From Roseinatronobacter thiooxidans (GTDB lineage Bacteria > Pseudomonadota > Alphaproteobacteria > Rhodobacterales > Rhodobacteraceae): DNA of 64,000 nt. The stretch covers positions 1 to 64,000 of the forward strand of contig NZ_MEHT01000011.1 of the NCBI RefSeq assembly GCF_001870675.1, written 5' to 3'. Positions 8,662 to 23,751 of the stretch are shown piece after piece (the stretch's first letter is position 1; every line of letters starts with the position of its first letter). The notes beneath the pieces are model-generated. The model was not told where the DNA came from, ran no database searches, and saw nothing but the letters and a program-made list of their open reading frames with translations. Both the position numbers and the translations under genes were made by a program.

Positions 8662-8669
8662 GGTGTGCC

Positions 8670-9644
8670 TCATGCTATGGGTGAAAACAGGCGGCCGCGC
8701 TTGGCTGCGACATCCAGCCAGACCGCCACGATGATGACCACCCAAGTGACCAGCCATTGCGTGTAATAGGGCTGGCCCATCAGGATCAGGCCATTCTGGA
8801 TAAAGGCCAGCATCAGAACGCCCAACACGGTTTTCAGGATACTGCCTGCCCCCCCCAACAGCGATGTGCCCCCAAGGATGACGGCCGCCAGCACCTGCAA
8901 TTCATAGCCCTGGCCCACATTGTTCTGCGACCCCATCACGCGGCTGCCCAGAATGATTGCCGCCACTGCAACGCAGAGCGCCGAGATCAGATAGGTGGTG
9001 AACACCACGCGCGAGCGCGGAATGCCCGAGAAGACAGACGCAGTCGGATTGCCGCCCACAGCATAGACCTTGCGGCCAAAGGGCATGGTCGACATGATGA
9101 CGTGAAAGATAATCGCCATCAGCCCGAAGATCAGTATTGGTGCGGCAATGCCCAAAACCGAACCGCGTCCGAAAATGGCGAACCATGTGCCGCGCTGGTC
9201 GACAATATCGACATTCTGCCCGCCGCTATAGATCAGCACCAGCCCCTGAATGGCCGACAGCATGCCCAGCGTCACAATCAGGGAATTAAGCCGCAGAATA
9301 CCAATGAGAAATCCGTTGATCGCGCCCAGACACAGCGTGGCCAGCACCATGATGGGAATGGCCAGCTCTGGCCCGATCTTGTCATGCAGATCGACCACAA
9401 GCACAGTCGCAAAGGACAGCATGGACCCAACAGACAGGTCCAGATTGCCGCCGATCACAACAATCGTGACCCCCACCGCCATAACCCCGATGATCGCGGA
9501 TTGACGAAAGACCGACATGATGTTGTCGGCGGTCAGAAACCTGTCGGACATAAGCGAGAATACGATCATGAACAGAATAAAGGCCACAAGGATGCCTTGC
9601 TTGGCAATCGCAGGCCCACCGGCCTTGAGGCGGTTCAATAACAT
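8670..9644 (-). CDS. CUT2-type sugar ABC transporter, permease
   Basis: 324-residue RbsC-like permease, the heterodimer partner of the next gene. It carries GGNLDLSVGSMLSFAT and the C-terminal AVILGGTSLLGGAGSILKT motif, with the same hydrophobic profile. ATG 9644 follows a strong GGGAGGA ribosome-binding site; the frame upstream to 9752 is not used. Two different permease genes plus one double-domain ATPase match CUT2 importers that use heterodimeric membrane parts. Confidence 0.94.
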   Translation of the reverse strand: MLLNRLKAGGPAIAKQGILVAFILFMIVFSLMSDRFLTADNIMSVFRQSAIIGVMAVGVTIVVIGGNLDLSVGSMLSFATVLVVDLHDKIGPELAIPIMVLATLCLGAINGFLIGILRLNSLIVTLGMLSAIQGLVLIYSGGQNVDIVDQRGTWFAIFGRGSVLGIAAPILIFGLMAIIFHVIMSTMPFGRKVYAVGGNPTASVFSGIPRSRVVFTTYLISALCVAVAAIILGSRVMGSQNNVGQGYELQVLAAVILGGTSLLGGAGSILKTVLGVLMLAFIQNGLILMGQPYYTQWLVTWVVIIVAVWLDVAAKRGRLFSPIA

Positions 9645-9765
9645 CAGAGTCCTCCCGTAAAGCGGCGTGCTACGCGCTCTCCCCAGCGCGGGCGTATCGC
9701 TGCATTCGCAGCGATAACCGGGGCAGAGGCAAACACGCCCGCCCCGGTTCATTCATGTGACTGCC

Positions 9766-10707
9766 TTAGAATACAGGGCGGTCAAACTCTTCCATATTGT
9801 CCTGAGTGATTTTGGGTGTGTCAAAATAGTTCAGCTTTGGCACATCCTCGCCCGCCAGCACATCGAGGGCGGTTTGCAATGCCGCTTTGGCGTCATCAAC
9901 AGGCGATTGATAGACCGAACCCCAATATTCGCCGCGCCCCATCGCATCATAGCCCACTGCGAAATTTGTGGCCCCGATAAACACCATGCCTTCGGCACGG
10001 TTCGCAGCGATTGCGGCATTCAGTGCGCCCACACCCATATTGTCATCGCCGGAATACACCCCGTCAATCTGGTCAAACCGTGTCAGGAATGTTTCCATCG
10101 TGCGCTGCGCGCGCTCGCGGTTCCAGTCGCCGGGCTGAATGTCCAGCTGGGTCACACCGGGGCACATTTCGGCCAGCCGCTCGTCAAAGCCCTGCTGGCG
10201 TTCAATCGCGGTGGTATAGCCCGGCATGCCGGTGATCTGCACGATCTGGCCTTCACCCTCCAGGGCATCACACATCATCTCGGCCGAATAGATGCCCTGC
10301 TGGATATTGTTCGGGCCAGAGAAGGCGGCGATAAATTCCATGCCTGCCTCGGCAATGTTCGAATTGGTTACGATGACCGGAATTTCGGCGCGGTGGGCAT
10401 TGCGCACAGCGGGAACCACTGCCTGCCCATCGGTGGGCCAGATGATGATTGCATCAACATTTTGCTGGATCAGATCCTGCATCTGGCTGATCTGGCGTGC
10501 AACATCACCGCCCGCATCCAGCACGATCACCTCTACATCGGGGTTGGCATCGGCTGCGGCGATGAACGCGCGCTCATAGGTTGTCTGATAGCTGTCGATA
10601 CCGACATTGTTTTGGGTAATTCCAATACGAACAGTATCGGCTGACGCCGCGCTGGCCAGGGCAAGAGTGCCGCAGCTGGCAAGCAAAATGCGCATTTTAT
10701 TGGTCAT
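9766..10707 (-). CDS. Sugar-binding periplasmic protein of CUT2 ABC transporter (RbsB-like)
   Basis: 313-residue periplasmic binding protein of the Peripla_BP_4 / RbsB class. A Sec signal peptide (MRILLASCGTLALASAASA) precedes the mature start near DTVRIG. Typical segments are IGITQNNVGIDSYQTTYER and the inter-lobe region VDAIIIWPTDGQAVVPAV. ATG 10707 has GGGAGG eight bases upstream. First gene of the import operon, transcribed away from the wHTH-SBP regulator across a 189-bp promoter region. The ligand cannot be read from the sequence; the class binds pentoses, hexoses, polyols or autoinducer-2. Confidence 0.93.
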   Translation of the reverse strand: MTNKMRILLASCGTLALASAASADTVRIGITQNNVGIDSYQTTYERAFIAAADANPDVEVIVLDAGGDVARQISQMQDLIQQNVDAIIIWPTDGQAVVPAVRNAHRAEIPVIVTNSNIAEAGMEFIAAFSGPNNIQQGIYSAEMMCDALEGEGQIVQITGMPGYTTAIERQQGFDERLAEMCPGVTQLDIQPGDWNRERAQRTMETFLTRFDQIDGVYSGDDNMGVGALNAAIAANRAEGMVFIGATNFAVGYDAMGRGEYWGSVYQSPVDDAKAALQTALDVLAGEDVPKLNYFDTPKITQDNMEEFDRPVF

Positions 10708-10824
10708 GGTCTTCCTCCCATAGGTGAAATATCGCCGCGCGCCCCGATGAAATATCGCACCAACAAGGCAGGTTCGCGGTTGGTCTATGCTGTCCGCACG
10801 CCCCCCAACACAACACAGCAAACA

Positions 10825-10896: not shown

Positions 10897-12723
10897 GTGA
10901 AAGTATTGCAGATGAGCATACACCGCAACGCGACCAATCGCAGTACACAAAACAGAAAGTCCGCAGACGTGAGAATGGGAAATATTCAAAAAGAAAATTT
11001 CTCGAAAGCTTCCGGTACAGGCCGGGGGCAGGCGAGGGCAGGGCAGGCCGCATTGCCTGCCGCGCTGGCCTTTGTGGACACATTGAGCGCCGAGATCGAT
11101 ACCGCGCTGGAGATTGCAGAGCCGAACCCTCATCTGAATATGGTCGCCGCACTGCTACAGGCGCATCTTAGCGGCAAGATCATAACTGCGACAATGCTGA
11201 TTTCAGCTTCGGGCGTGCCCTATGCAACTGCAAGACGCAAATTGCAGCAGTTGCAGGACTGCGGCTTTATCGAACAGCGCGCGCGCACACGTTCGGGGCG
11301 GTCGTTCTCGCTGCACCCCACCGAGCGGCTGATGAATAACTGGCTTCAGCTGTCAGACCGTATTTTGCGGCTTTGCGCCGAAACGGGCGGGACAGGGGCG
11401 AAAGATGCGCGCGATTACTATTTCGGCGCATCCTATGTGCCTGCCAGCCAAGCCATCGCGCCGCCGCAGGTTTTGCCCGAACCCCTGCAACTGGGCGGCG
11501 GTTTGCGTATTCTGGTGCATGGTGATCCGACCTTTATGGTGATGGAGAACCTCAAGCGGCAGTTTGAACAGATCATCGGTACCAATATCAGCCAGCGCGC
11601 CTTTTCCATTGACCGGCTGCGCGCGGAAGCCTTGCGCAATGCCGAACGCCGGGTCAGCAAATATGACATCATCGCGGTCGATCTGCCCTGGATCGGTGAG
11701 TTTGCCCAAAAAGGGGTTCTCATGCCGCTGGATGAATGTCTGGACACTGACCGACTGGATACGCCGGATTTTCACACCGCAGGCTGGATGGCCGCGCATT
11801 GGGGTGGTCGCCCCTACGGGGTGCCCAGCCAGACCACGCCGGAATTGTTATTCTATCGCAAAGACCTGTTTGCCGAAGCGGGGTTGGAGCCGCCAGACAC
11901 CACCGACAAGCTGATTGCGGCGGCGCGCCATTTCCACGCCCCCCAACAGGGCCGCTACGGGATTGCATGGAATGCCGCACGCGGCACGGCGCTGGGCCAT
12001 CAGTTTCTGATGACATGCGCGGATTTCGGGCAACCCATCGTCAATCTGGACGCCATCGCAGGCGGGTTTGCCGCTGACACGGCGCACCGCCGCGATATTG
12101 CACCCACGATTGACACGCCTCTCGCGCTGGATGCCTGCGAATTCCTGCTCTCGCTGCTGGAATTCTCGCCCCCCGATATTCTGTCCATGTCATGGTATGA
12201 GCGCGTGCGCCCCTATGCGGCAGGCAAGATCGCCATGGCTTATGGCTATACGCTGCTGGCCCCGTATTTCGAACGCGACCCCTCGTCGCCCGCCAATGGC
12301 AATACCGGCTATCTGCCCCATCCCGCCGGGCCAGAGGGGCAGCCCGTGGCAACAGTTGGCGGCTATGTCATGGGCATTCCGGCAAATATTGCGCCAGAGC
12401 GCCGCGCGGCGGCAGCCGAGGCGCTGATCGCCTTCACCTCGCCCGAGGCGCAGAAGCTGTATATCCTGAATGGCAGCCGCACCGCCCCGCGCTACTCCGT
12501 AGGGGCAGACCCCGAGGTGCGCCGCATCTCGCCCATATTCGAGGCGGTGGACGCCATGTCCCTGCGCGACGAGCTGCAATACTGGCCGCGCCCGCCCATC
12601 CCCCAGATTGCCGAGATCATCGAGATTTGCGGGCAGGAACTTCACGACATGCTGCGCGGCGTACTGACCCCGCGCAACGCATTAAGGCGCGCCCAAGCAC
12701 GGGCAGAAGACGCCTTGAAATAA
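10897..12723 (+). CDS. Regulator: winged-helix DNA-binding domain fused to a family 1 solute-binding protein fold
   Basis: 608-residue protein without a signal peptide. Residues about 75-150 form a winged helix-turn-helix (VAALLQAHLSGKIITATMLI, then SGVPYATARRKLQQLQDCG and a basic wing QRARTRSGRS). Residues about 200-590 look like a MalE-type extracellular solute-binding protein (GGLRILVHGDPTF, YGVPSQTTPELLFYRKDLF, AGKIAMAYGY, VATVGGYVMGIP). The natural reading is a cytosolic one-component regulator that senses a solute with a borrowed binding-protein fold; E. coli SgrR has the same order of parts with a different binding-protein family. The start is unclear: GTG 10897, ATG 10912 and ATG 10975 are in frame and none has a good ribosome-binding site. 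It heads the plus-strand catabolic genes. Confidence 0.85.
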   Translation: MKVLQMSIHRNATNRSTQNRKSADVRMGNIQKENFSKASGTGRGQARAGQAALPAALAFVDTLSAEIDTALEIAEPNPHLNMVAALLQAHLSGKIITATMLISASGVPYATARRKLQQLQDCGFIEQRARTRSGRSFSLHPTERLMNNWLQLSDRILRLCAETGGTGAKDARDYYFGASYVPASQAIAPPQVLPEPLQLGGGLRILVHGDPTFMVMENLKRQFEQIIGTNISQRAFSIDRLRAEALRNAERRVSKYDIIAVDLPWIGEFAQKGVLMPLDECLDTDRLDTPDFHTAGWMAAHWGGRPYGVPSQTTPELLFYRKDLFAEAGLEPPDTTDKLIAAARHFHAPQQGRYGIAWNAARGTALGHQFLMTCADFGQPIVNLDAIAGGFAADTAHRRDIAPTIDTPLALDACEFLLSLLEFSPPDILSMSWYERVRPYAAGKIAMAYGYTLLAPYFERDPSSPANGNTGYLPHPAGPEGQPVATVGGYVMGIPANIAPERRAAAAEALIAFTSPEAQKLYILNGSRTAPRYSVGADPEVRRISPIFEAVDAMSLRDELQYWPRPPIPQIAEIIEICGQELHDMLRGVLTPRNALRRAQARAEDALK

Positions 12724-12746: not shown

Positions 12747-13553
12747 ATGGACACCACCCGCCTGAAAGGCAAAAACATTCTGATCACCGGGGCCGCGCGC
12801 GGCATGGGTGCCTGTAATGCCGAACATTTTGCAGAACTGGGCGCGAATGTCTGCCTTGGCGATCTGGACCTTGATGCCGCGACAGAGATGGCCGAGAAGA
12901 TCAACGCCAAAGGCAATGGCCGCGCCATTGCCGTGAAAATGGACGTGACCAAGCGCGAAGACAACGCAAACGCAGTCGCCGCCACAGTCGAGGCATTCGG
13001 TATGATCAATGTGGGCCTGTTCAATGCGGGCCTGAACAAGCCCCGTTTCTTCATGGATATTGATGAAGACAACTGGGACATGATCATGAATGTCAACACC
13101 AAGGCCATGTGGCTGGGCATGCAGGAAACCGCCCGCCAGATGATCAAGCAGGGCAAACAGGATTACCCCTATAAGCTGATCAATGTAGGCTCTATCGCGT
13201 CGCGCAAGCCGCTGGTGGATGTCACGGTCTATTGTACCTCGAAATACGGCTGCCTTGCGCTGACGCATTGCGGCGCCATCGGGCTGTCGGAGCATGGCAT
13301 TACCGTCAACGGCTATGCGCCCGGTGTGGTGGTGACACCGCTATGGGAACAGCTGGACAAGGACTTGGTCGAGATCGGCTTCAAGGACCGCGAGGGCCAG
13401 GCCTATGATGATATTGTCCGCGATGCGTTGCAGATCAAGCGCGTCTCTTACCCTGACGATGTGAAAGGCACAGCCGCCTTTCTGTGCAGTTCCGACAGCG
13501 ACTATATGACGGGTCAGATGATCCATATCGATGGCGGCTGGTGCATCCAGTAA
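12747..13553 (+). CDS. SDR family oxidoreductase
   Basis: 268-residue classical SDR with TGAARGMGA, the NAG motif (FNAGLNKP), the catalytic Ser in VGSIASRKP and YCTSK. The C-terminus has the family-typical YMTGQMIHIDGG. ATG 12747 is preceded by GAGGAGG; the frame open from 12627 overlaps the regulator and is rejected. It starts 23 bp after the regulator and is followed by the M24 enzyme. In context it probably oxidises or reduces the imported polyol, sugar or an acetoin-like intermediate; 2,3-butanediol/sorbitol-type dehydrogenases are the nearest family memory. Confidence 0.9.
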   Translation: MDTTRLKGKNILITGAARGMGACNAEHFAELGANVCLGDLDLDAATEMAEKINAKGNGRAIAVKMDVTKREDNANAVAATVEAFGMINVGLFNAGLNKPRFFMDIDEDNWDMIMNVNTKAMWLGMQETARQMIKQGKQDYPYKLINVGSIASRKPLVDVTVYCTSKYGCLALTHCGAIGLSEHGITVNGYAPGVVVTPLWEQLDKDLVEIGFKDREGQAYDDIVRDALQIKRVSYPDDVKGTAAFLCSSDSDYMTGQMIHIDGGWCIQ

Positions 13554-13620
13554 CGCGCTGACCTTCCTTCCAGTTCACCTTTAGAAAAATCGGTGCATGC
13601 GCACCCGATGGAGTATTCCC

Positions 13621-14919
13621 ATGTCACGAGCCTTGATGCCCAATCTGCTGACCCCGCAAGACCTTGAACCCAACTGGCGCTGGGAAGGGCGGCTGCCCGC
13701 CTGGGGCCACACCTCGGTTGATTTTGAACGCCGGATTGACCATGACCGCCTGCGCCGCTACCGGCTGGCGCGCACGCGGCAGGCGTTGCAGGCGTCGAAT
13801 GCGGGTACGCTGTTGTTGTTCGATGTGAACAATATCCGCTATGTGTCCGCCACCAAAATCGGGGAATGGGAACGCGACAAGATGTGTCGCTTCTGCCTGC
13901 TGACGGGCGATGATGCGCCTTATGTCTGGGATTTCGGGTCTGCCGCGATGCACCACAAGAAATTCAGCGATTGGCTGGTGCCCGACCATTGCCGCGCCGG
14001 TGTGGTGGGCATGCGCGGCACCATCCCGCCCGAATTCGGGCTGATGCGCCAATATGCCAAGGAAATTGCGGGCCTGATCCGTGATGCGGGCATGGGCGAC
14101 ATGCCGGTGGGTCTGGACTATGCCGAAACCGCCATGTTCCATGCGCTGCAAGAAGAAGGGCTGAATGTGGTCGATGGCCAGCAAATCATGCTGGCCGCGC
14201 GCGAGATCAAGAACTGGGATGAAATCCAGCTGCTGACGCAGGCCGCCGCCATGGTCGATGGTGTCTACCATATGATCTATGAAGAGTTGAAACCGGGCAT
14301 CCGCGAGAATGACATCGTGGCACTGTCGAACAAGATGCTTTACGAGATGGGCTCGGATGATGTGGAAGCGATCAACGCCATCTCGGGCGAGCGGTGCAAC
14401 CCGCATCCGCATAACTTCACCGACCGTTATTTCCGGCCCGGTGATCAGGCGTTCTTTGACATTTTGCAAAGCTATCAGGGGTACCGGACCTGCTATTACC
14501 GGACCTTCAACATTGGCCGCGCGACCCCTGCGCAGAATGATGCCTATGTGAAAGCGCGCGAATGGATTGATGCCTCGATTGCCATGATCAAACCGGGGGT
14601 CAGCACTGACAAGGTGGCCGAAGTCTGGCCACGCGCCGAAGAATTCGGCTTTCCGGATGAACAATCGGCCTTTGGCTTGCAATTCGGCCACGGGCTGGGG
14701 CTGGCGCTGCATGAGCGCCCCATCATCAGCCGCGCGATCAGTCTGGACCACCCGATGGAGATCAAGACCGGCATGGTCTTTGCGCTGGAAACCTACTGCC
14801 CTGCGGCAGACGGCTATTCGGCAGCCCGGATCGAGGAAGAGGTCGTCGTGACCGAGACCGGCTGCGAGGTGATCAGCCTGTTCCCCGCCGAAGAACTGCC
14901 GATTGCCAACCGCTATTGA
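13621..14919 (+). CDS. M24 (pita-bread fold) family hydrolase, Xaa-Pro peptidase/creatinase-like
   Basis: 432-residue protein of the M24 superfamily: an N-terminal creatinase-like domain (LLLFDVNNIRYVSA) and a C-terminal pita-bread domain. Of the five metal ligands usual in aminopeptidases, the first Asp (AFFDILQ), His (FGHGLGLALHE), and both Glu (ALETYCP and RIEEEVVV) are visible. The second Asp, expected eleven residues after the first, is Cys (GYRTCYYRTF). This suggests altered or absent metal use, as in creatinase-type hydrolases. ATG 13621 follows GATGGAG; an in-frame ATG at 13597 is possible. It sits inside the catabolic operon, so a small-molecule hydrolase is more likely than a housekeeping peptidase. 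Confidence 0.85.
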   Translation: MSRALMPNLLTPQDLEPNWRWEGRLPAWGHTSVDFERRIDHDRLRRYRLARTRQALQASNAGTLLLFDVNNIRYVSATKIGEWERDKMCRFCLLTGDDAPYVWDFGSAAMHHKKFSDWLVPDHCRAGVVGMRGTIPPEFGLMRQYAKEIAGLIRDAGMGDMPVGLDYAETAMFHALQEEGLNVVDGQQIMLAAREIKNWDEIQLLTQAAAMVDGVYHMIYEELKPGIRENDIVALSNKMLYEMGSDDVEAINAISGERCNPHPHNFTDRYFRPGDQAFFDILQSYQGYRTCYYRTFNIGRATPAQNDAYVKAREWIDASIAMIKPGVSTDKVAEVWPRAEEFGFPDEQSAFGLQFGHGLGLALHERPIISRAISLDHPMEIKTGMVFALETYCPAADGYSAARIEEEVVVTETGCEVISLFPAEELPIANRY

Positions 14920-14920
14920 A

Positions 14921-14971
14921 CGCCCCTGCCGGGGCGTGCCTCCGGCGGGAGTATTTTTCGGCAAGAAAATG
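14921..14971 (+). repeat. Interspersed repeat, copy 1 (GC hairpin + GAGTATTT...CAAGAAAATG)
   Basis: A hairpin CGCCCC-N4-GGGGCG (14921-14936) is followed by GAGTATTTTTCGG and CAAGAAAATG (14949-14971). The same tail occurs at 37700-37721 and 39758-39779. Here it fills the gap between the M24 gene and the E1 alpha gene; the hairpin plus T-run could act as a weak terminator. Confidence 0.55.
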
Positions 14972-15002
14972 TTGGGGCAGATGGCCCGGAGAGGATGAGA
15001 TC

Positions 15003-15980
15003 ATGGCCAAGGCCAAGTCGAATACCGAAGACTACCTGCGGATGTATCGCCAGATGGTGCGCATCCGCACGTTCGAGGATAACGCCAACCAGTTGTATCT
15101 GTCGGCCAAGATGCCGGGCCTGACACATATGTATTCGGGCGAGGAAGCGGTGGCGGTGGGCATCTGCGAGGCACTGACCGATGATGACCGCATCACCTCG
15201 ACCCATCGGGGGCATGGGCATTGCGTGGCCAAGGGGGCGGAGTTCAAACAGATGTTCTGCGAGTTGCTGGGCAAGGCCGAGGGGTATTGCAGGGGCAAGG
15301 GCGGGTCCATGCATATTGCCGATCAAAGCCATGGCAATCTGGGGGCGAATGCGATTGTCGGCGGGTCCATGGGGATTGCGACGGGGTCTGCGTTGCGCGC
15401 GAAGCTGCAAGGTGCGGATGATGTGACAGTCTGTTTTTTCGGCGACGGGGCGACCGCGCAGGGGCTGATGTATGAGGTGATGAACATGGCCGCGCTCTGG
15501 CACCTGCCGGTCATCTATGCCTGCGAGAATAACGGCTATTCGGAATATACCAAGACCGAAGAAATCGCGGCGGGGTCCATTACCGCGCGCGCCGAGGCCT
15601 TCGGGATCGAGGCGCATCAGGTGGACGGGCAGGATGTGCTGGCGGTCAATGACCTGACGCGCAAACTGGTGGCGCGGGCGCGCAAGGGCGAAGGGCCGTT
15701 CTTTATGGAGTTGATGACCTATCGCTACCATGGCCACCATGTCGGCGACATCAACCGCGAATATTACCGCTCCAAGGATGAAGAGAAGGACTGGCGCGAC
15801 AACCGCGACCCGATCATCCGGTTCCGCGCGCATCTGGTCAGCGAAGGGATCGCCACGGAAGAAGATCTGGACGCGATGAATGCCGAGGTGGAACGCGACG
15901 CGGCCGAGGCTGTCGCCTATGCACTCGACGCGGCCTACCCGGATGCGTCGGAAGTCGACATGCATGTTTTTGCGGCCTGA
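15003..15980 (+). CDS. Thiamine-diphosphate 2-oxoacid (acetoin/pyruvate-type) dehydrogenase E1, alpha subunit
   Basis: 325 residues. The ThDP-binding signature begins GDGATAQGLMYEVMN and ends CENNGYSEYT, and the phosphorylation-loop region TYRYHGHHVGD is present. Length and sequence are closest in memory to acetoin dehydrogenase AcoA and the small alpha subunit of pyruvate dehydrogenase. Decarboxylates a 2-oxoacid or cleaves acetoin and transfers the acyl group to lipoyl-lysine with the beta subunit. ATG 15003 has GAGAGGATGAGA upstream. The beta subunit follows after 12 bp. Which substrate is used cannot be decided from sequence. Confidence 0.92.
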   Translation: MAKAKSNTEDYLRMYRQMVRIRTFEDNANQLYLSAKMPGLTHMYSGEEAVAVGICEALTDDDRITSTHRGHGHCVAKGAEFKQMFCELLGKAEGYCRGKGGSMHIADQSHGNLGANAIVGGSMGIATGSALRAKLQGADDVTVCFFGDGATAQGLMYEVMNMAALWHLPVIYACENNGYSEYTKTEEIAAGSITARAEAFGIEAHQVDGQDVLAVNDLTRKLVARARKGEGPFFMELMTYRYHGHHVGDINREYYRSKDEEKDWRDNRDPIIRFRAHLVSEGIATEEDLDAMNAEVERDAAEAVAYALDAAYPDASEVDMHVFAA

Positions 15981-15992
15981 GGAGGATATAGT

Positions 15993-16988
15993 ATGCGCGA
16001 GATCACCCTATCGCAGGCCGTGAACGAGGCCATTGCCGAAGAAATGCGCCGCGACCCGACAGTCTTCCTGATGGGCGAGGATGTGGCCGAGGCAGGCACG
16101 CCGTTCAAGGTGCTGTCCGGTCTGGTCGAAGAGTTTGGCACCGAGCGCGTGATCGACACGCCGATTTCCGAGCCGGGCTTTGTCGGGCTGGCGGTGGGCG
16201 CCGCGATGACGGGCGCGCGGCCCATTGTGGACCTGATGTTTGGCGATTTCATCTATCTGGTCATGGACCAGCTGTGCAATCAGGCGGCCAAGCAGCATTA
16301 CATGTCGGGGGGCAAGCTGACAGTGCCGATGGTGTTGCGCACCAATATGGGGGCCACGCGCCGCTCTGCCGCGCAGCACAGCCAAAGCCTGCAGGCGCTG
16401 GTGGCGCATATTCCGGGGCTGAAAGTGGCGATGCCGTCTTCGGCCTATGAGGCCAAGGGGCTGATGAAAACCGCCATCCGCGACAATAACCCGGTGGTGA
16501 TTTTTGAAGACAAGCTGATGTATCAGGATAAGGCACCGGTGCCGGAGGAAGAATATCTGATCCCCTTCGGCGTGGCGAATATAAAGCGCGAGGGGTCTGA
16601 CATTACCCTGATTGGCACCTCGTCCATGGTGCAGGTGGCGGAAAAAGCCGCCGAGATACTGGCGCTAGAGGGGATCAGCGCCGAGGTGATCGACCCGCGA
16701 ACGATTGTGCCGCTGGATGAGGCGACACTTCTGGCCAGCGTGAAGAAGACCAGCCGCGCGATTGTCATTGATGAGGGTCACCAAAGCTACGGCGTGACGG
16801 CGGAAATCGCCAGCCGGTTGAATGAAAAAGCGTTTTACCATCTGGATGCGCCGGTCTTGCGCATGGGCGCGATGGATGTGCCGGTGCCTTTCTCGCCTGC
16901 GCTGGAAGACCTGACCGTTCCCACCCCTGAACAAGTGGCGGCGAACGCACGCAGGCTTTGCGCGGGGGAGTTGATCCATGCCGCATGA
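15993..16988 (+). CDS. Thiamine-diphosphate 2-oxoacid dehydrogenase E1, beta subunit
   Basis: 331-residue transketolase-like beta subunit (Transket_pyr and transketolase C domains). Visible markers are FLMGEDVAEAGTPFKV, DTPISEPGFVGLAVGAA, the GATRRSAAQHSQSL stretch and IDPRTIVPLDEATLLASV near the C-terminal domain. A strong GAGGAGG ribosome-binding site precedes the ATG. Its last codons overlap the start of the lipoyl-protein gene by 11 bp, which indicates translational coupling. Confidence 0.93.
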   Translation: MREITLSQAVNEAIAEEMRRDPTVFLMGEDVAEAGTPFKVLSGLVEEFGTERVIDTPISEPGFVGLAVGAAMTGARPIVDLMFGDFIYLVMDQLCNQAAKQHYMSGGKLTVPMVLRTNMGATRRSAAQHSQSLQALVAHIPGLKVAMPSSAYEAKGLMKTAIRDNNPVVIFEDKLMYQDKAPVPEEEYLIPFGVANIKREGSDITLIGTSSMVQVAEKAAEILALEGISAEVIDPRTIVPLDEATLLASVKKTSRAIVIDEGHQSYGVTAEIASRLNEKAFYHLDAPVLRMGAMDVPVPFSPALEDLTVPTPEQVAANARRLCAGELIHAA

Positions 16989-18261
16989 GGTGACAATGCC
17001 GCAGCTTGGCATGGCACAGGATGCCGGACGCCTGACGCAATGGCTCAAAGCGCCGGGCGATGAGGTGGCCAAGGGCGATGCGCTGTTCGAGGTGGAAACC
17101 GACAAGGCCACGATGGAGGTGGAAGCGCAGGCATCGGGTTTCCTGACCCATGTGACGGCAACTGAGGGCGAGGATGTGCCGGTCGGGCAGGCCATCGCGC
17201 GCATATCCGACAGTGCGGAAGATGACACGCCTGCCGCAGCCCCCCAACCACAAGCAGATGCCCCGAACACGCTGCCCGAGGGCCGCGAGATCACCATGCC
17301 ACAACTTGGCATGGCGCAGGATAGCGGTGTGCTGGTCGGCTGGCTGGTGGAACTGGGCGCGCAAGTCGGCGCGGAGGATCTGCTGTTCGAGGTGGAGACC
17401 GACAAGGCCACGATGGAAGTTCCCGCAGGCATGGCCGGCTATCTGGCGGCAACTCTGGCGCAGGCCGGGGACGCGGTGCCAGTGGGGCAGGCCGTGGCCG
17501 TCATCTCGGCCAGCAAGCCCGCGGCACCTGTCGCGCGCGCGATGGCGGCAGCCGCGCCCGCGCCGAAACGCGAAGCGGAACCCGCGAAAGCCCCTGATCC
17601 TGCACCCGCCTCAAAACCGGCACAGGCCGCGCCAACCGTGGCCCAGCAATCGGATGGCCGCATTCTCGCCTCGCCCAAACTGCGCCGCGTGGCGCTGGAG
17701 CAGGGGCTGGATCTGGCGCGTCTGGTGCGCGCGGGCCATCCGCAGCCCTACCATATGCGCGATTTGGAGATGTTGCGCAGCCTGAAGGACGCACCCGCCA
17801 CCGCCGCGCCGGTGGCGGCGCAAGCCATGCGCCTGCACGCCGACTGTGCCGAAGACGGGTTTGCGCATTTCGCGGCATGGGCTGCCGAAGCGCAAGGCCT
17901 GACGGATGCAGACGCGCTGCTTGCAGGGCTGGCCGGGGCCAGCATGGGCGGGGCGGCCACAGTTGCGATTGAGCGATTTGGCACAGCGCGTGTCTTCGCC
18001 GTGCCTAAGGGCCGCTGCCTGTCTTCTATTGCCGAGAGTGAGGCCGCACCCGATCTGCGCGTGCGCGATTTGCGTGCAACGCCCTTGCGTGCGGTCAGCA
18101 TGGGGGCCGAAGATCTGCCGGTTCTGACGCTGATGCAGGCAGGCACGGGCCTTACACTCGTGCTGGAATGCAGCCCTGACCAGATCGCCCCTGAAGCCGC
18201 AATCGCCCTTCTTTCCGAATTCGCAGGGCGCATGCACGACCCGCTGCGCCACCTGCTCTGA
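16978..18261 (+). CDS. Two-lipoyl-domain E2-like protein with a degenerate C-terminal domain (E3BP-like)
   Basis: 427 residues. Two lipoyl domains carry VETDKATMEV around Lys43 and Lys143, exactly 100 residues apart, with near-identical DNA. A linker rich in Ala and Pro leads to a peripheral-subunit-binding domain (ILASPKLRRVALEQGLDLAR, about 228-265). The last 150 residues look like a shrunken acyltransferase fold (VRDLRATPLRAV, ALLSEFAGRMHDPLRHLL) but contain no DHRxxxG catalytic motif. It therefore should carry acyl groups and bind partner subunits but not transfer acyl to CoA, like protein X/E3BP of eukaryotic PDH. The transferase is encoded separately at 19712. Confidence 0.88.
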   Translation: MPHEVTMPQLGMAQDAGRLTQWLKAPGDEVAKGDALFEVETDKATMEVEAQASGFLTHVTATEGEDVPVGQAIARISDSAEDDTPAAAPQPQADAPNTLPEGREITMPQLGMAQDSGVLVGWLVELGAQVGAEDLLFEVETDKATMEVPAGMAGYLAATLAQAGDAVPVGQAVAVISASKPAAPVARAMAAAAPAPKREAEPAKAPDPAPASKPAQAAPTVAQQSDGRILASPKLRRVALEQGLDLARLVRAGHPQPYHMRDLEMLRSLKDAPATAAPVAAQAMRLHADCAEDGFAHFAAWAAEAQGLTDADALLAGLAGASMGGAATVAIERFGTARVFAVPKGRCLSSIAESEAAPDLRVRDLRATPLRAVSMGAEDLPVLTLMQAGTGLTLVLECSPDQIAPEAAIALLSEFAGRMHDPLRHLL

Positions 18262-18276
18262 CTCTTCGAGGTATCC

Positions 18277-19701
18277 ATGGATTATACCGATCTCTATATC
18301 AACGGCGCATGGCACAAAACGCCCGAGCGGTTTGACGTGATCAACCCCGCAACCGAGGAGGTGCTGGCCTCTGTCGCTTCTGCCGGTATTGCCGACGCTG
18401 ATGCCGCGCTGGATGCCGCCGAGGCCGCGATGGCAGACTGGTCCGCGCGCACGCCGCGCGCGCGCTCGGAAGTGTTGCGCAAAGCATGGGAATTGATGAC
18501 TGCACGTCTGGACCATTTCGCGCATCTGATTACGCTGGAAAACGGCAAGGCGGGCGCAGATGCACGCGGTGAAGCCACTTATGCTGCCGAATTCTTCCGC
18601 TGGTTCGCCGAAGAGGCCGTGCGCGCGGACGGGATGATCACGCAGGCCCCTGCATCGGGCGCGCGGATCATCGTGCAGCACAAGCCTGCGGGGCTGGCTG
18701 TGCTGATCACACCGTGGAACTACCCCGCCGCCATGGGCACGCGCAAGATCGCGCCCGCGCTGGCGGCAGGCTGCGGGGTGATAATAAAGCCCGCCTCGGA
18801 AACGCCGCTGACCATGCTCGCGCTTATGCCGCTGCTGGAAGAGGCGGGTGTGCCTGCGGGGCTGGTCAATGTGCTGCCCTCACGCCGCACCGGCGCGCTG
18901 GTCGATCACATGCTGCATGACCCCCGCGTGCGGGTGGTCAGTTTCACCGGCTCCACCGGCGTGGGGCGCACACTGTTGAAATCCGCCGCCGATCAGGTCT
19001 TGAAACCGGCGATGGAACTGGGCGGCAATGCGCCCGTGATCGTGTTTGACGATGCCGATCTGGACGTGGCGATTGAGGGCACGATGCTGGCCAAGATGCG
19101 CAATCTGGGCGAGGCCTGCACGGCGGCGAACCGCATCTATGTGCATGAGGCGATCGCGCCCGAATTCACCCGTCGCCTGACGGCGGCCATGCAGGCCTTG
19201 AAAGTTGGCGATGGCACCGACCCGAGCGTAGATGTCGGCCCGCTGGTCAATGCTGCCACGCGCGACAAGGTGGCGGAATTCGTGGCCGATGCGCTGGCCA
19301 AGGGGGCAAAGCTGGAATGCGGCGGTGTGCTGCCGGAGGGGCGCGGCTATTTCTACCCGCCCACAGTGCTGTCAAACGTGCCCGAGAGTGCCGATTGTGT
19401 GCAGGACGAAATCTTCGGCCCTGTGGCGGCACTTCAGACATTCAGCGATCAGGATGACGTCATCACCCGCGCCAACAACACCGAATACGGGCTGGTGGCC
19501 TATGTCTTCTCGGGCGATTTCAAGCGCGCGCTGCAGGTCTGCGAGCGGCTGGATTACGGCATGGTGGGTCTGAACCGCGGGCTTGTCAGCGACCCTGCCG
19601 CGCCTTTTGGCGGCACCAAGCAATCGGGACTGGGGCGCGAAGGCGGGCATGAGGGGATGTTAGAGTTTATGGAAACGCAATATATCTCGGCCAGTTGGTA
19701 A
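18277..19701 (+). CDS. NAD(P)-dependent aldehyde dehydrogenase (succinate-semialdehyde dehydrogenase-like)
   Basis: 474-residue aldehyde dehydrogenase. The catalytic Glu (AMELGGNAPVIVFDDADLD) and Cys (NLGEACTAANRIYV) are present, with the PWNYPAAM cofactor entrance and the C-terminal PFGGTKQSGLGREGG. The length and motifs are those of the GabD/SSADH branch. It lies 15 bp after the lipoyl gene and 10 bp before the acyltransferase gene, splitting the E2 in two. A role oxidising acetaldehyde or another aldehyde made by the dehydrogenase locus is inferred, not shown. Confidence 0.92.
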   Translation: MDYTDLYINGAWHKTPERFDVINPATEEVLASVASAGIADADAALDAAEAAMADWSARTPRARSEVLRKAWELMTARLDHFAHLITLENGKAGADARGEATYAAEFFRWFAEEAVRADGMITQAPASGARIIVQHKPAGLAVLITPWNYPAAMGTRKIAPALAAGCGVIIKPASETPLTMLALMPLLEEAGVPAGLVNVLPSRRTGALVDHMLHDPRVRVVSFTGSTGVGRTLLKSAADQVLKPAMELGGNAPVIVFDDADLDVAIEGTMLAKMRNLGEACTAANRIYVHEAIAPEFTRRLTAAMQALKVGDGTDPSVDVGPLVNAATRDKVAEFVADALAKGAKLECGGVLPEGRGYFYPPTVLSNVPESADCVQDEIFGPVAALQTFSDQDDVITRANNTEYGLVAYVFSGDFKRALQVCERLDYGMVGLNRGLVSDPAAPFGGTKQSGLGREGGHEGMLEFMETQYISASW

Positions 19702-19711
19702 GGGGGCAGAC

Positions 19712-20587
19712 ATGTCAGACATCATCGCCAGCCCCAGCACGCGGCGCAAGGCCCTTGAACAGGGGGTTGATCTGGACGCGCGTGCCCGCGAATTGGGGCG
19801 CAAGACCATGGGACCGGAAGACCTTGGCACCTCCGCCCCCGCAGCCCCGACGGGCGACACCAGCTATTGGGATGTGGACCATGCCGCTTACGGGCCAGTG
19901 ACCCATGAGCCGATGAGCCGCTTTGCCCAAGTGGCCGCCGCCAATCTGGGGGCGGCCAATGCGCTGATCCCGCAAGTCACCCATCACGACCGCGCCGATC
20001 TTCGCGCGGTTGACGCGCTGCGCCAGCGCCTGAAACCAGAGGCACAGGCGCGCGGGCGAAAGCTGACAACGCTGGTGTTCCAGATTGCAGCGCTGGCGCG
20101 CTGCTTGCGCGCCTTCCCGCGCTTCAATGCGTCGCTCTCAGCGGATGGCAAAACCCTGATCCTGAAGGAGTATGTCCATATCGGCATCGCCGTGGATACG
20201 CCCCACGGCCTGATGGTGCCTGTCATCCGCGATGCGGACACCAAGGGGCTGTGGGAGATTGCAGCCGATCTGGCCGATCTGGCGGCCCGTGCGGGCGCGC
20301 GCAAGATCAAACCCGACGAGATGGGCGGCGCGTCCATGACCATCAGCAATCTGGGCGGTATTGGCGGCACAGCATTTACCCCCATCGTCAACCCGCCCGA
20401 ACTGGCCATTCTTGGCATTACCCGAACCGAGATTGTCACCGTCTGGGACGGCGACAGCCCGCGCCCTGTGCCTATGGCCCCGCTGGATCTGTCCTACGAC
20501 CACCGCGCCCTGAACGGTGCAGATGCGGCGCGGTTCATGAGCCATCTGACGCAGCTTCTGGCGGACCCGCGCCGCATGATGGTGTAA
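19712..20587 (+). CDS. 2-oxoacid dehydrogenase acyltransferase (E2) lacking a lipoyl domain
   Basis: 291 residues: a short subunit-binding-domain-like N-terminus (IASPSTRRKALEQGVDLDAR, about 4-35) and a full acyltransferase catalytic domain. The catalytic His is in DLSYDHRALNGADAARF near residue 264, and MTISNLGGIGGTAFTPIVN is intact. No lipoyl domain and no DKA motif occur, so it must accept acyl groups from a separate lipoyl protein, presumably the one at 16978. It is the last gene of the operon; no dihydrolipoamide dehydrogenase (E3) follows, so E3 must be shared with another complex. Confidence 0.9.
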   Translation: MSDIIASPSTRRKALEQGVDLDARARELGRKTMGPEDLGTSAPAAPTGDTSYWDVDHAAYGPVTHEPMSRFAQVAAANLGAANALIPQVTHHDRADLRAVDALRQRLKPEAQARGRKLTTLVFQIAALARCLRAFPRFNASLSADGKTLILKEYVHIGIAVDTPHGLMVPVIRDADTKGLWEIAADLADLAARAGARKIKPDEMGGASMTISNLGGIGGTAFTPIVNPPELAILGITRTEIVTVWDGDSPRPVPMAPLDLSYDHRALNGADAARFMSHLTQLLADPRRMMV

Positions 20588-20754: not shown

Positions 20755-23751
20755 CTACCTTGCACCCCGACCATTGCGCCTGCGTTGCATGGCGCTAACC
20801 TGTCGGCCCAAAGCTGCGCGCGCGATTTTGCGCAGGCTTGGATAGGGGCGGATCATGTCTGCCAGCCATGGCCCCACAGCATAATAGGCGCGGATAAACA
20901 AGCGCCCCCTTCTATGCTGCGACAGTTCCAGATCGCGGTACAGGCGCAGAAACACCACATCGGGGTGGTCGGGCGTGCCATAGGCGCAGGTTGCCACGAA
21001 ACAGCCCCCGCCGGTTCCGGCTGGGCGGGTGTCTTGGTCTTCCTCGTCCCTATCATCCGACCCTGCGTCCTGATGTTGCAGATATTGCTTTGAAAACTGG
21101 CCCGGCTTTAGGAACAGGGCAAAGTCAGGCTTTGTGTCGCTGTTGAGCAAGTCCAGGCGTCTGGCCTCTATTGCCGCATCGTCGATTTCAAGGATTTGCT
21201 GGATCGAGCGTGGTTCCAGATCAGGATGGGCGTCATCCCATATGTCTTCAAACTCTTCGCGTTCACGCTCTGACATGACAAGGAAGTAATCAATCCGGTC
21301 CACTTCGGCCACAGGCGGGCGCGGACGTGCGAGCATCAGATTGTCGGGTTCGCGCAAATTATCAAAGCCGTTTGCATATTCTTCTGCGGTGATCCGCTGA
21401 AACCGCATGTCCAGCGCCGCTTGGTCGGTGTCTCGCAACAGGCGCGCGGCCCCTTCGGGGCTAAGGTTTGCCAGCAGGCCCTTGAACACACCTGTATCTA
21501 CCGACATGGTCAGCGCATTGGGGTTCAACTGATCCAGAAGCGAGGTTTCCGCGTCTGGTGAGAGACCCGACAACAAAACTTCCACGTCTTGCGCAGATGT
21601 CGCAGTCAGCAGCGCCTCAAAGGCGTCTTTCGAGAAGGCAGGCGGCGGGGCAGGGGTGTCATCGGGTTCGGGGTCAGGCGGGATATCCCCGCTGGGCGGC
21701 GGGGTGTTCAACTGCGCTACCAGATCGGCGACAGGTGAGGTGTCGGAGAAATCCACCAACACGGTTTCCAGATCATCCAAGCGGCTGCCCAAGCCCAGAA
21801 TCGACGTTTTCTCGCCCGTGTCATGGGTGATGACAATATCGTCCCCGTCTGCCACCGCGCGGTCCAGCACCTCTTCGGGGGTGGTATATGTATTGCGAAA
21901 ACTTAGCCCGTCGCCGCGCGCGATGTCGAAATCTGCAATAGTGGCACTTCCGGCAGGGTCTATGACAAAGTGGTTTGCACCACTTCCCCCTTCCATCAGG
22001 TCGGTGCCGTCACCTGAAACCAGCGTGTCATTCCCTTCGCCCCCCAGCAACGTATTGTCACCTGACCCACCGATCAGCAGGTCGTCGCCCCGCCCGCCGT
22101 CAAGCAGATCATTGCCAGCGCCGCCGATAAGCGTGTCATTGCCATCGAAGCCAAATAACTGGTCAGACCCCGCATTGCCGACCAGCAGATCATCAAATGC
22201 GCTGCCCATGATGATGTCGTCATAATCTGCCGCAGGGTCTACCACCTGGTCATGCCCTGAAATCCTGACCCCGACATCGCCGGTGGTGAACTCGAATTTC
22301 ACAATTTCATATGGCGCCAGAGAGACTGACAATCCCCCGGCCCCTGCCATGTCGCTTTCATTGAGGATCTGGATATAGGGGCGCGCATCGCGCGATTCAG
22401 GGTCGCCCTCATCGCGGTCGGGGGTTGCGGGGTTGTCCAGAACGCCGAGCTGTTCCGCCCAGACATGGTGGTAGTCGGGGATCAGCCCCGATGGGTCCAG
22501 CGTGAAGTCTATATCAATGTCACTGCGCGATGATACAAAGATCACGGCTTTATCGCGGCCCTTATAGGCATGCATGACCAGTTGTTCGGCATCTTCGGGC
22601 GCGCGCTCGGCCGGGTCTGTGCCGACCGCGTTGCGCAGTGCTTCATCCGTGTCCAGATCCAGCAGGCGCAAGCCGCGAATGCTGTGTGACATCATGCGAT
22701 ACGTCTCGCCGGCGGGGGTCAGCCAGTATTCATAGCCGCCGGGTTCGTCGTCCCGGATGCGCAACGCCGCAAGCCGTGTTCCAAGGCTGAGATACTGTGT
22801 GCCCCAGACTGCCGCGTTATCGACGCCGCGCTCTATCATGACGCGCATCGCTTCCAGCATGCCGGACGCCTGCACAAGCCCCACATCGCCGCCGCTGTTC
22901 TGAATATTCCATTCAGAAATAAAATAGGTCAGATCGTCGGATACCCCCTCAAAGCTTTTCCAGTCATCCAGCCGGTCAAAAGTGCCCTCTCGCTGGGTCG
23001 CCAAGGCATAGGTCGGGGGGTAGTAATGCGTCGAGACAGAGTCGATAGAGTGCCGCGCGGCAAATGACATCTGCTCGGCGATGCGTTCATTCCCGTCTGG
23101 AATGCGTCTTGTTGTGGCCTGCATATTGATCAGGGGGCGTGTCCATGCCTCTGGCCCGCCTTGCTCGGCTTCAAAAATGTCGAACAGGGTATTCATGCCT
23201 GTCGCCAGTTCGTTGACCAGCGCGCCATATTCCTCGGGTGACATGCGGTCCCGATACCAGAATTCATTGCCAATCTGGAACAGTGCGATATCCACATCGC
23301 CATAGGCCCCGCGAATGATGTTATCGACGCGGTCCAGCAGGGCATACAGGCCAAAGGGGCTTGGGTCGCGCATTTCGTCCGCGCCCAGATTGTCGGACAA
23401 GTAGTTTTCGGTCGGGATTGTGAATTTTACCGATATATCATTTTCGCGCGCATATTGGAACATTGCGGGAACCGTCAGCAGCCTGTCGGCACCGCTATCC
23501 GACACACCGCTTGGGCGTGTCACGTCGAAAAACCTGTCCACAATTTCAGAGCCGGGGGCGAATGTCTCTTCTGTGACGGTGCCGCCCGGAAAGCGAAGAC
23601 CGCTCCAGCCGACATCTTGCAACATGCGGTCAAACGGGCTTCCGGGGTCAAGATAGTTGAAAGTAAACAGGGCATTGGCTTCAAACATGCCATCGCCGAC
23701 AACATTGCCGACATAGGGTGAATCCGTTAAAAAAATTACTTGTCCGGACAT
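20755..23751 (-). CDS. Glycosidase-like (clan GH-A fold) RTX protein with CFI-box C-terminus
   Basis: 998-residue protein with no Sec signal. Residues 1-400 resemble a TIM-barrel glycoside hydrolase of clan GH-A (GH39/GH51-like): acid/base Glu163 in FQIGNEFW, nucleophile Glu280 in FISEWNIQ, and STHYYPP between them. Residues about 505-600 are RTX calcium repeats (GGAGNDLLDGGRGDD and similar). A charged acidic region of low complexity follows. The last 85 residues contain GGGCFVATCAYG and FLRLYRD, the CFI-box C-terminal domain. RTX repeats suggest type I secretion. ATG 23751 follows AAAGGGGGC. Substrate unknown; no exporter genes are adjacent. Confidence 0.82.
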   Translation of the reverse strand: MSGQVIFLTDSPYVGNVVGDGMFEANALFTFNYLDPGSPFDRMLQDVGWSGLRFPGGTVTEETFAPGSEIVDRFFDVTRPSGVSDSGADRLLTVPAMFQYARENDISVKFTIPTENYLSDNLGADEMRDPSPFGLYALLDRVDNIIRGAYGDVDIALFQIGNEFWYRDRMSPEEYGALVNELATGMNTLFDIFEAEQGGPEAWTRPLINMQATTRRIPDGNERIAEQMSFAARHSIDSVSTHYYPPTYALATQREGTFDRLDDWKSFEGVSDDLTYFISEWNIQNSGGDVGLVQASGMLEAMRVMIERGVDNAAVWGTQYLSLGTRLAALRIRDDEPGGYEYWLTPAGETYRMMSHSIRGLRLLDLDTDEALRNAVGTDPAERAPEDAEQLVMHAYKGRDKAVIFVSSRSDIDIDFTLDPSGLIPDYHHVWAEQLGVLDNPATPDRDEGDPESRDARPYIQILNESDMAGAGGLSVSLAPYEIVKFEFTTGDVGVRISGHDQVVDPAADYDDIIMGSAFDDLLVGNAGSDQLFGFDGNDTLIGGAGNDLLDGGRGDDLLIGGSGDNTLLGGEGNDTLVSGDGTDLMEGGSGANHFVIDPAGSATIADFDIARGDGLSFRNTYTTPEEVLDRAVADGDDIVITHDTGEKTSILGLGSRLDDLETVLVDFSDTSPVADLVAQLNTPPPSGDIPPDPEPDDTPAPPPAFSKDAFEALLTATSAQDVEVLLSGLSPDAETSLLDQLNPNALTMSVDTGVFKGLLANLSPEGAARLLRDTDQAALDMRFQRITAEEYANGFDNLREPDNLMLARPRPPVAEVDRIDYFLVMSEREREEFEDIWDDAHPDLEPRSIQQILEIDDAAIEARRLDLLNSDTKPDFALFLKPGQFSKQYLQHQDAGSDDRDEEDQDTRPAGTGGGCFVATCAYGTPDHPDVVFLRLYRDLELSQHRRGRLFIRAYYAVGPWLADMIRPYPSLRKIARAALGRQVSAMQRRRNGRGAR

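Follow-up and report, generated by a model that had tools for sequence, protein, structure and literature searches.

A lipoyl carrier resembling E3BP and a lipoyl-less acyltransferase that probably share the work of one E2 in a Rhodobacteraceae operon

Complexes of the 2-oxoacid dehydrogenase type consist of a dehydrogenase (E1), an acyltransferase (E2) and a dihydrolipoyl dehydrogenase (E3), and in some of them an E3-binding protein (E3BP) stands beside E2. In the excerpt of the source drawn on here, E3BP is recognized by an E2-like topology, an inactive acetyltransferase-like domain, and an E3-specific peripheral subunit-binding domain (PSBD) and/or an M3-like motif (PMC10156792). The same paper concludes that the E3BP gene is eukaryotic and lets E1 and E3 be recruited separately; bacteria, in its description, share one PSBD between the two (PMC10156792). 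According to partial texts, mammalian E3BP (PDHX, or protein X) has a PSBD and an inactive E2-like domain and sits beside an active E2 (PMC10156792, PMC8146983), while a reduced E2-derived domain of Neurospora crassa E3BP/PX docks on the E2 core (PMC10156792, PMC7494870). A bacterial precedent for lipoyl groups acting in trans is the E2 domain of Corynebacterium OdhA and mycobacterial KGD, which, in the part of the source consulted, depends on lipoyl groups carried by another protein (PMC10415282). Here we describe an operon in a 64,000-nucleotide stretch of the Roseinatronobacter thiooxidans genome (contig NZ_MEHT01000011.1; henceforth the window) that encodes a lipoyl-bearing protein built like E3BP (henceforth LIP) and an acyltransferase without any lipoyl domain (henceforth TRA). 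We propose that LIP and TRA probably act jointly as one E2, within a complex of the 2-oxoacid dehydrogenase type that resembles pyruvate dehydrogenase (PDH) or acetoin dehydrogenase.

The genes for E1 alpha, E1 beta, LIP, an aldehyde dehydrogenase (ALDH) and TRA follow one another on the same strand with gaps of +12, -11, +15 and +10 nt, the start of LIP overlapping the stop of E1 beta by 11 nt (Table 1). The ALDH gene thus lies between LIP and TRA, as the initial annotation of this DNA had noted; against TIGR01780 its product scores 540.3 bits, short of the cut-off of 646. For E1 alpha we chose the ATG at 15003 as the start inside ORF 14916-15980. Its nearest solved structure is human PDH E1 alpha, with the PDH E1 alpha group reaching 224.5 bits in the PDB search versus 137.3 bits for the next group, and TIGR03182 gives 346.2 bits, short of its cut-off of 393.85.

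Table 1. Features of the window, grouped by operon and upstream region
Feature	Coordinates	Strand	Evidence or remark
E1 alpha (thiamine diphosphate-dependent dehydrogenase)	15003..15980	+	PF00676 276.8 bits; PDB 2ozl E 2.3e-65
E1 beta subunit	15993..16988	+	NF006667 395.9 bits, above cut-off 321
LIP, putative E3BP-like lipoyl carrier/scaffold, 427 aa	16978..18261	+	
LIP lipoyl domain 1	16984..17205	+	PF00364 E 4.3e-20
LIP lipoyl domain 2	17287..17505	+	PF00364 E 1.8e-16
LIP PSBD-like domain, GHPQPYH loop replacing GTGxxGR	17662..17772	+	E3_binding (PF02817)
LIP shrunken acyltransferase-like domain, predicted non-catalytic	17827..18258	+	AlphaFold, Foldseek
ALDH, succinate-semialdehyde-dehydrogenase-like	18277..19701	+	PF00171 534.3 bits
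TRA, lipoyl-less AceF-like acyltransferase, 291 aa	19712..20587	+	PF00198 248.3 bits; PDB 1eaa E 1.1e-67
TRA PSBD-like N-terminus, GRKTMGPED loop	19721..19825	+	E3_binding
TRA catalytic domain, Ser212, His264, Asn268	19898..20584	+	
M24-fold (DddP/creatinase-like) protein	13597..14919	+	PF00557 125.7 bits; adjoins E1 in most loci
Short-chain dehydrogenase/reductase (SDR) oxidoreductase	12747..13553	+	PF13561 153.7 bits; same conserved block
Putative regulator, helix-turn-helix (HTH)-like segment and solute-binding-protein domain	10915..12723	+	PF01547 (SBP_bac_1) 94 bits; HTH_IclR 20.3, cut-off 22
Ribose-type (CUT2) periplasmic sugar-binding protein	9766..10821	-	
ORF	8670-9752	-	named after pGal_E78 gene order
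ORF, permease-like	7672-8757	-	named after pGal_E78 gene order
ORF, ATPase-like	6161-7900	-	named after pGal_E78 gene order

The N-terminal half of LIP matches PF00364 (Biotin_lipoyl) in two stretches at 125.7 bits (cut-off 22.1), and each stretch contains an ETDKA motif, so that both combine the family match with the DKA signature. Its C-terminal part has no PF00198 match at E up to 1 in any of 34 LIP sequences (the window and 33 relatives). An AlphaFold model of residues 225-427, built with these 34 sequences, is nonetheless confident (pLDDT 92.5, pTM 0.74), and among the 50 Foldseek matches listed from the PDB nearly all are E2 catalytic cores (E 1.2e-6 to 1.4e-4, identity 7-13%), human E3BP (6h60) ranking 14; five belong instead to acetyltransferases of other families (9xc8, 2i9d). 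Compared by eye with the secondary-structure string of the TRA model, that of LIP shows neither the N-terminal helix of the E2 domain nor its long middle helix. The DHRxxxG motif is absent, and at the aligned catalytic column, which was set by matching the two C-termini with a profile alignment that is itself weak (probability 60%), none of 70 LIP sequences has a His (68 carry another residue and 2 a gap). Both this count and the LIP tree omit L074, L176, L187, L190, L191 and L192 and add L118 (L numbers denote loci, G numbers genomes); the LIP proteins of L176 and L190, inspected separately, contain no DHR. The C-terminal domain of LIP is therefore predicted to be a shrunken, catalytically inactive acyltransferase fold, which agrees with the initial annotation of two lipoyl domains followed by a transferase without DHRxxxG.

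The dead domain does not drift freely. Its dN/dS is 0.10-0.39 in 12 of 12 pairs, compared with 0.01-0.10 for E1 beta, 0.03-0.12 for ALDH and 0.04-0.19 for TRA (11 pairs), with members shared between pairs, several dS values above 1, and the pair L075/L076 using 30 LIP codons. These codon comparisons show purifying selection. The C-terminal end is similar across the 70 aligned LIP sequences.

TRA is the counterpart of LIP. It matches PF00198 far above the cut-off of 23 bits, and in the alignment with Azotobacter E2p (1eaa) the catalytic His, Asn and Ser fall on TRA His264, Asn268 and Ser212; the three catalytic residues are named in a PDB entry title. His264 and Asn268 are kept in 16/16 TRA sequences. 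The TRA model, less confident than that of LIP (pLDDT 77.5), matches 1eaa by Foldseek at E 8.5e-20 and 50% identity. There is no PF00364 match and no 'DK' anywhere in the protein, and since the frame measures just 307 aa from stop to stop, no lipoyl domain is hidden upstream; we thus rejected the possibility that one had been missed. The initial description of TRA as a full transferase with its catalytic His and without a lipoyl domain holds, and the two findings that would have undone it, an overlooked lipoyl motif in TRA or an intact DHRxxxG in LIP, were both looked for and not found in the window proteins.

The catalytic domain of TRA is of the AceF type known from Azotobacter and E. coli PDH. 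Its best NCBIfam model is TIGR01348 (311 bits, under the cut-off of 552), and in the tree the TRA sequences, that of Marinomonas (described below) among them, fall in a clade of 63 sequences (support 0.84), none with a lipoyl motif, which neighbours long AceF-type E2s. Unlike TRA, these neighbours have one to three lipoyl motifs in the chain, in a motif count that misses variant forms (L121, L122, perhaps L134). As TRA groups by the AceF-type E2s while the LIP C-terminus is too degenerate to be placed, the two proteins are probably not the halves of one E2 cut in two, and we rejected that origin. A split of one E2 by frameshift or assembly error was likewise rejected: an ALDH gene stands between the two genes and the order recurs in relatives, which argues against chance as well.

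Both proteins also contain a segment resembling a PSBD. E3_binding is found at E up to 1 in 34/34 LIP sequences (best 2.1e-6) and in 16/16 TRA sequences (best 1.7e-8). The canonical PSBD loop is GTGxxGR; this loop occurs in 0/70 LIP and 0/16 TRA sequences. LIP has instead a loop of the type GHPQP(F/Y)H, whose second Pro and following Asp are present in 70/70, and TRA an unlike loop with a fixed Gly-Arg in 16/16. Judged from these alignments, the loops are two distinct, separately conserved forms, which would fit two different partners.

We examined 76 loci and found LIP in 75 of them, the window included. Searching with the LIP C-terminus gave matches in 35/295 genomes of the family, that of the window among them. 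The LIP profile found 46/292 genomes of the order at E <1e-30 (counted from the places listed), 145 genomes of the order at 1e-5, mostly by short matches at the PSBD end, and 5/385 genomes of the class at E <1e-14. TRA is encoded in 66 of the 75 LIP loci, so that the gene order for which relatives were to be searched does recur. The 75 comprise 63 loci with a two-lipoyl LIP and TRA, 7 with a one-lipoyl LIP and no TRA, 2 with a one-lipoyl LIP and TRA, 1 with a two-lipoyl LIP and no TRA, and 2 broken loci with no lipoyl motif. Leaving out the broken loci L052, L074, L187, L191 and L192, the 70 intact loci fall into 62, 6, 1 and 1 in the same order of types. Loci without TRA thus tend to have a one-lipoyl LIP (62/1/1/6, Fisher p 3.7e-7, with no correction for kinship). 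These counts are not independent: the loci are kin, L188 and L189 seem to be one region present twice in a single genome, and G825 and G863 contribute two loci each. L190 and the Marinomonas locus described below combine a one-lipoyl LIP with TRA. Two genomes, G825 (L185/L186) and G863 (L182/L190), hold two clusters each, one with TRA and one without.

The initial annotation also stated that no E3 is present. That is true of the window, in which no E3 gene was found, and a search of the genome found five Pyr_redox_dim genes, all on other contigs. In 12/66 TRA-bearing loci, one of the 12 fragmented, an E3 gene lies downstream of TRA (12/56 when 3.9 kb or more of downstream sequence is required). 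Since E3 follows TRA in these relatives, its absence here is a local feature, and we rejected the idea that it belongs to the design of the system.

The same operon occurs in a second class. A phylum search with the TRA catalytic domain matched 165/398 genomes, the listed frames being mostly much longer, like ordinary E2s. In the gammaproteobacterium Marinomonas hwangdonensis HDW-15 (G1006), it found a 54% match in a 292-aa frame, within an operon of the order SDR-M24-E1a-E1b-LIP-ALDH-TRA-E3. LIP here has 334 aa and one lipoyl domain; TRA has 278 aa and matches PF00198 alone, with neither a lipoyl domain nor a PSBD. A scan of the contigs with the Marinomonas LIP returned one full relative, namely itself, and four short lipoyl-only matches. 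Because the Marinomonas TRA has neither an arm nor a docking domain, it would be unable to recruit E1 or E3 by itself, and LIP must supply both if the complex is real, and by extension from this case the dead domain of LIP would be the natural candidate for the link to the TRA core.

These data suggest the following scheme. The E1 subunits would make an acyl group and place it on the lipoyl-lysines of LIP. LIP would dock by its dead E2-like C-terminal domain on a core of TRA catalytic domains, and TRA would move the acyl group, probably acetyl, from the arm of LIP to coenzyme A (CoA) in trans. E3, encoded beside TRA in some relatives and in this genome presumably borrowed from elsewhere, would re-oxidize the arm. 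Of the two PSBD-like domains, each altered in its own way, one would recruit E1 and the other E3, a division also found between mitochondrial E2 and E3BP.

LIP shows two of the features by which E3BP is recognized: the E2-like topology, with lipoyl, PSBD-like and E2-fold domains in order, and a predicted inactive acetyltransferase-like domain, on an E2 fold lacking the catalytic His. The likeness to protein X remarked on at the outset is thus borne out in build. More tentatively, and with doubt slightly outweighing belief, LIP may be seen as a bacterial E3BP, that is, a non-catalytic E2 relative that bears all the arms and a PSBD, is docked on an arm-less E2 core, provides with TRA separate PSBD types for E1 and E3, and arose outside the eukaryotes to spread in marine alpha- and gammaproteobacteria, partly on plasmids. 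We do not class it as an E3BP, only as a protein that probably works in the same way. The differences are clear: eukaryotic E2p retains its own lipoyl domain and PSBD, whereas TRA is without any lipoyl domain; and the dead domain of LIP is shorter than an E2 domain. Fungal E3BP/PX also has a reduced domain, but it belongs to a eukaryotic PDH whose E2 keeps its lipoyl domain and PSBD, and the docking of LIP on a core is our proposal.

Should the proposal be correct, arm and core would be fully separated, a division of labour more extreme than the mitochondrial one. A similar division in a bacterial operon would make available a small system that can be expressed, in which to ask why a dead E2 is kept, whether its shrunken domain docks on the core, and where specificity for E1 and E3 comes from. 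The loci form a natural series that offers ready-made comparisons: LIP has one lipoyl domain or two, TRA and E3 are each present or absent, and in some clusters a stand-alone lipoyl protein occurs.

Several results weigh against this reading. The E3_binding matches are faint: 11.8 bits in LIP, from residue 229, and 16.2 bits in TRA, at residues 4-22, both under the cut-off of 23.7. The binding domains first assigned to the two proteins hence survive as weak matches, below threshold and without the canonical loop. The 50 listed fold matches of the LIP C-terminus have TM scores of 0.41-0.52 and rmsd values of 5-18 A. Its profile aligns with 95 E2 domains at a probability of 60% locally and 8% globally; the LIP profile A1, run against the PDB, retrieved only PSBDs among the E2 entries, and hhalign of A1 against profile A2 aligned the PSBD alone. 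dN is higher in the LIP C-terminus than in the other three genes compared. At the position of the E2p Ser, TRA has Ser in 8/16 sequences and Thr in 8/16. Lastly, six intact loci, all with a one-lipoyl LIP (L077, L078, L080, L181, L182, and L185), have no TRA; a seventh such locus, L183, stops at a contig end. Among the TRA-less genomes, G269, G184, and G722 hold two PF00198 genes each, in frames of 439 to 514 aa, the draft genome G158 has one PF00198 gene, and in G825 and G863 the second cluster carries TRA. It follows from the six intact loci that TRA is not always required, and there LIP apparently works without it, perhaps on the PDH core.

These TRA-less loci speak for an alternative in which LIP is a complete lipoyl carrier loaded by E1, the acyl group is transferred by the resident PDH E2 or another E2, and TRA is an optional addition of capacity, not a structural half of the complex. 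The lack of any further PF00198 gene in G269, G184, and G722 fits it, as do three 1.4-Mb genomes (L119, L120, and L123) in which a similar SDR-M24-E1a-E1b-ALDH cluster has a stand-alone lipoyl protein in the E2 slot and which likewise hold two PF00198 genes only. We consider it unlikely, since 66 of 75 loci have retained TRA, as has Marinomonas with the same gene order, and since the absence of TRA tracks the one-lipoyl form of LIP as if the two proteins were matched (L190 and Marinomonas being the exceptions). The initial claim of one E2 in trans is borne out in part, insofar as complementary halves co-occur in two classes; it needs amending insofar as TRA is not obligatory and the pair is probably not a single E2 that was divided.

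Much less probable are two further readings. Were the C-terminus of LIP a functionless, decaying remnant, and both genes leftovers of an E2 duplication, its low identity to E2 structures (7-13% in the 50 listed matches) and its high dN relative to the other operon genes would be expected; the dN/dS well below 1 in every pair (with shared members and some dS >1), the confident predicted fold, the similar C-terminal end in 70 sequences and the presence in two classes make this very improbable. We give as little credence to a complex that does something other than form acyl-CoA, with the lipoyl group accepting electrons or the acyl group being hydrolysed afterwards, so that a transferase would be dispensable in principle. 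E2 parts are indeed missing or degenerate in clusters that keep M24 and E1 (a stand-alone lipoyl protein, no TRA, or SVDPRAVDG in a Streptomyces plasmid protein), yet His264 and Asn268 of TRA are retained in all 16 sequences and E3 is kept in some operons.

Other known systems share single traits with this pair. The E2 domain of OdhA and KGD depends on lipoyl groups in trans, as we propose for TRA, but, in the part of the source consulted, it is fused to E1o and draws its arm from the active E2 AceF (PMC10415282); here the arm would be on a dead E2-like protein of the same operon. LbpA is, as LIP would be, a lipoate-binding protein outside an acyltransferase, in this case a stand-alone one, as far as the excerpt goes (PMC6067878), whereas LIP keeps PSBD-like and E2-like domains and sits in an E1/E2 operon. 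The operon as a whole is reminiscent of what we take to be the arrangement of acetoin dehydrogenase (AcoABC/L) operons, with E1 alpha and beta and a lipoyl E2 near an ALDH and an acetoin-reductase-like SDR; LIP, however, scores 157.3 bits against the acetoin dehydrogenase E2 model (NF011457, PRK14875), under the cut-off of 307. In the open-licence subset of the literature, among the matches listed, we found no paper on the cluster, on a bacterial E3BP or on an arm-less E2, nor any dead E2-like carrier paired with an arm-less E2.

What the complex acts on can be guessed from its neighbours. A ribose-type importer, the SDR, the M24-fold protein and ALDH lie nearby, E1 alpha is PDH-like, and TRA is close to acetyl-transferring E2s; on these grounds we suggest, as a rather doubtful reading, that a sugar- or polyol-derived compound is oxidized, then cleaved by E1, with acetyl passing to lipoate and CoA and ALDH oxidizing the released aldehyde, presumably as in acetoin dehydrogenase. 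The SDR scores 204 bits against TIGR02415 (acetoin-reductase-like), under the cut-off of 304. The M24-fold protein is 80-97% identical across the Rhodobacteraceae loci and reaches 118.5 bits against the DddP model, whose cut-off is 600. Aligned to PepE and DddP, it has Cys (TCYYRT) in place of the motif Asp (SDSTRT/VDISRT), a residue that we take to be the ligand of the second metal-ligand motif; by this alignment it is probably not a peptidase. The putative regulator fuses a winged-helix-like segment to an extracellular solute-binding domain and shows 48-70% identity in the loci that have it.

The E2 module is fluid while M24 stays. The stand-alone lipoyl protein has 75 aa in L123 (the locus in which it was checked against Pfam), and G+C is 0.352 in the L119 genome and 0.359 in the L123 genome; in L123, the cluster is followed by Gfo/Idh, iolC-like, iolB-like, class II aldolase and aldose epimerase genes. 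Two other M24 clusters encode a full E2 with a lipoyl domain, GTGxxGR and DHR (Pfam check in L121), and L118 encodes a one-lipoyl LIP without TRA. On a plasmid of Streptomyces sp. YIM 121038 (L130, 15604-16398), a 264-aa E2-like protein with a GTGPGGRV loop, SVDPRAVDG replacing the His motif and, by eye, no lipoyl domain is encoded beside a fused E1 alpha/beta and an M24 relative.

The neighbour genes differ between groups of loci. On a single origin of the TRA-less type the trees differ. In a tree of E1 and ALDH, which leaves out eight of the 76 loci, the TRA-less type appears at four places, some weakly supported; in the LIP tree, rooted on a single long outgroup, most of this type lies near the base, with the TRA-bearing L184 inside. 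Plasmids make up the named carriers, with 12 from Phaeobacter, 3 from Tritonibacter and one each from Pacificitalea, Marinovum and a Rhodobacteraceae bacterium. One of them, pGal_E78 of P. gallaeciensis, was typed as conjugative and is annotated with 'biotin/lipoyl-containing protein', 'NAD-dependent succinate-semialdehyde dehydrogenase', '2-oxo acid dehydrogenase subunit E2' and lpdA in this order, names that hide that LIP and TRA may be two halves.

Elsewhere in the R. thiooxidans genome (G000:C43, 331938-332159), a frame of 491 aa contains a lipoyl domain and has, in addition, a 47% match to E1 beta. By its sequence, another E1 beta of this organism thus appears to carry a fused lipoyl domain, which would be a second unusual placing of such a domain. 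Directly downstream of TRA, on the opposite strand (20755-23751, -), the window encodes a 998-aa protein with RTX calcium-binding repeats (HemolysinCabind, 60.6 bits).

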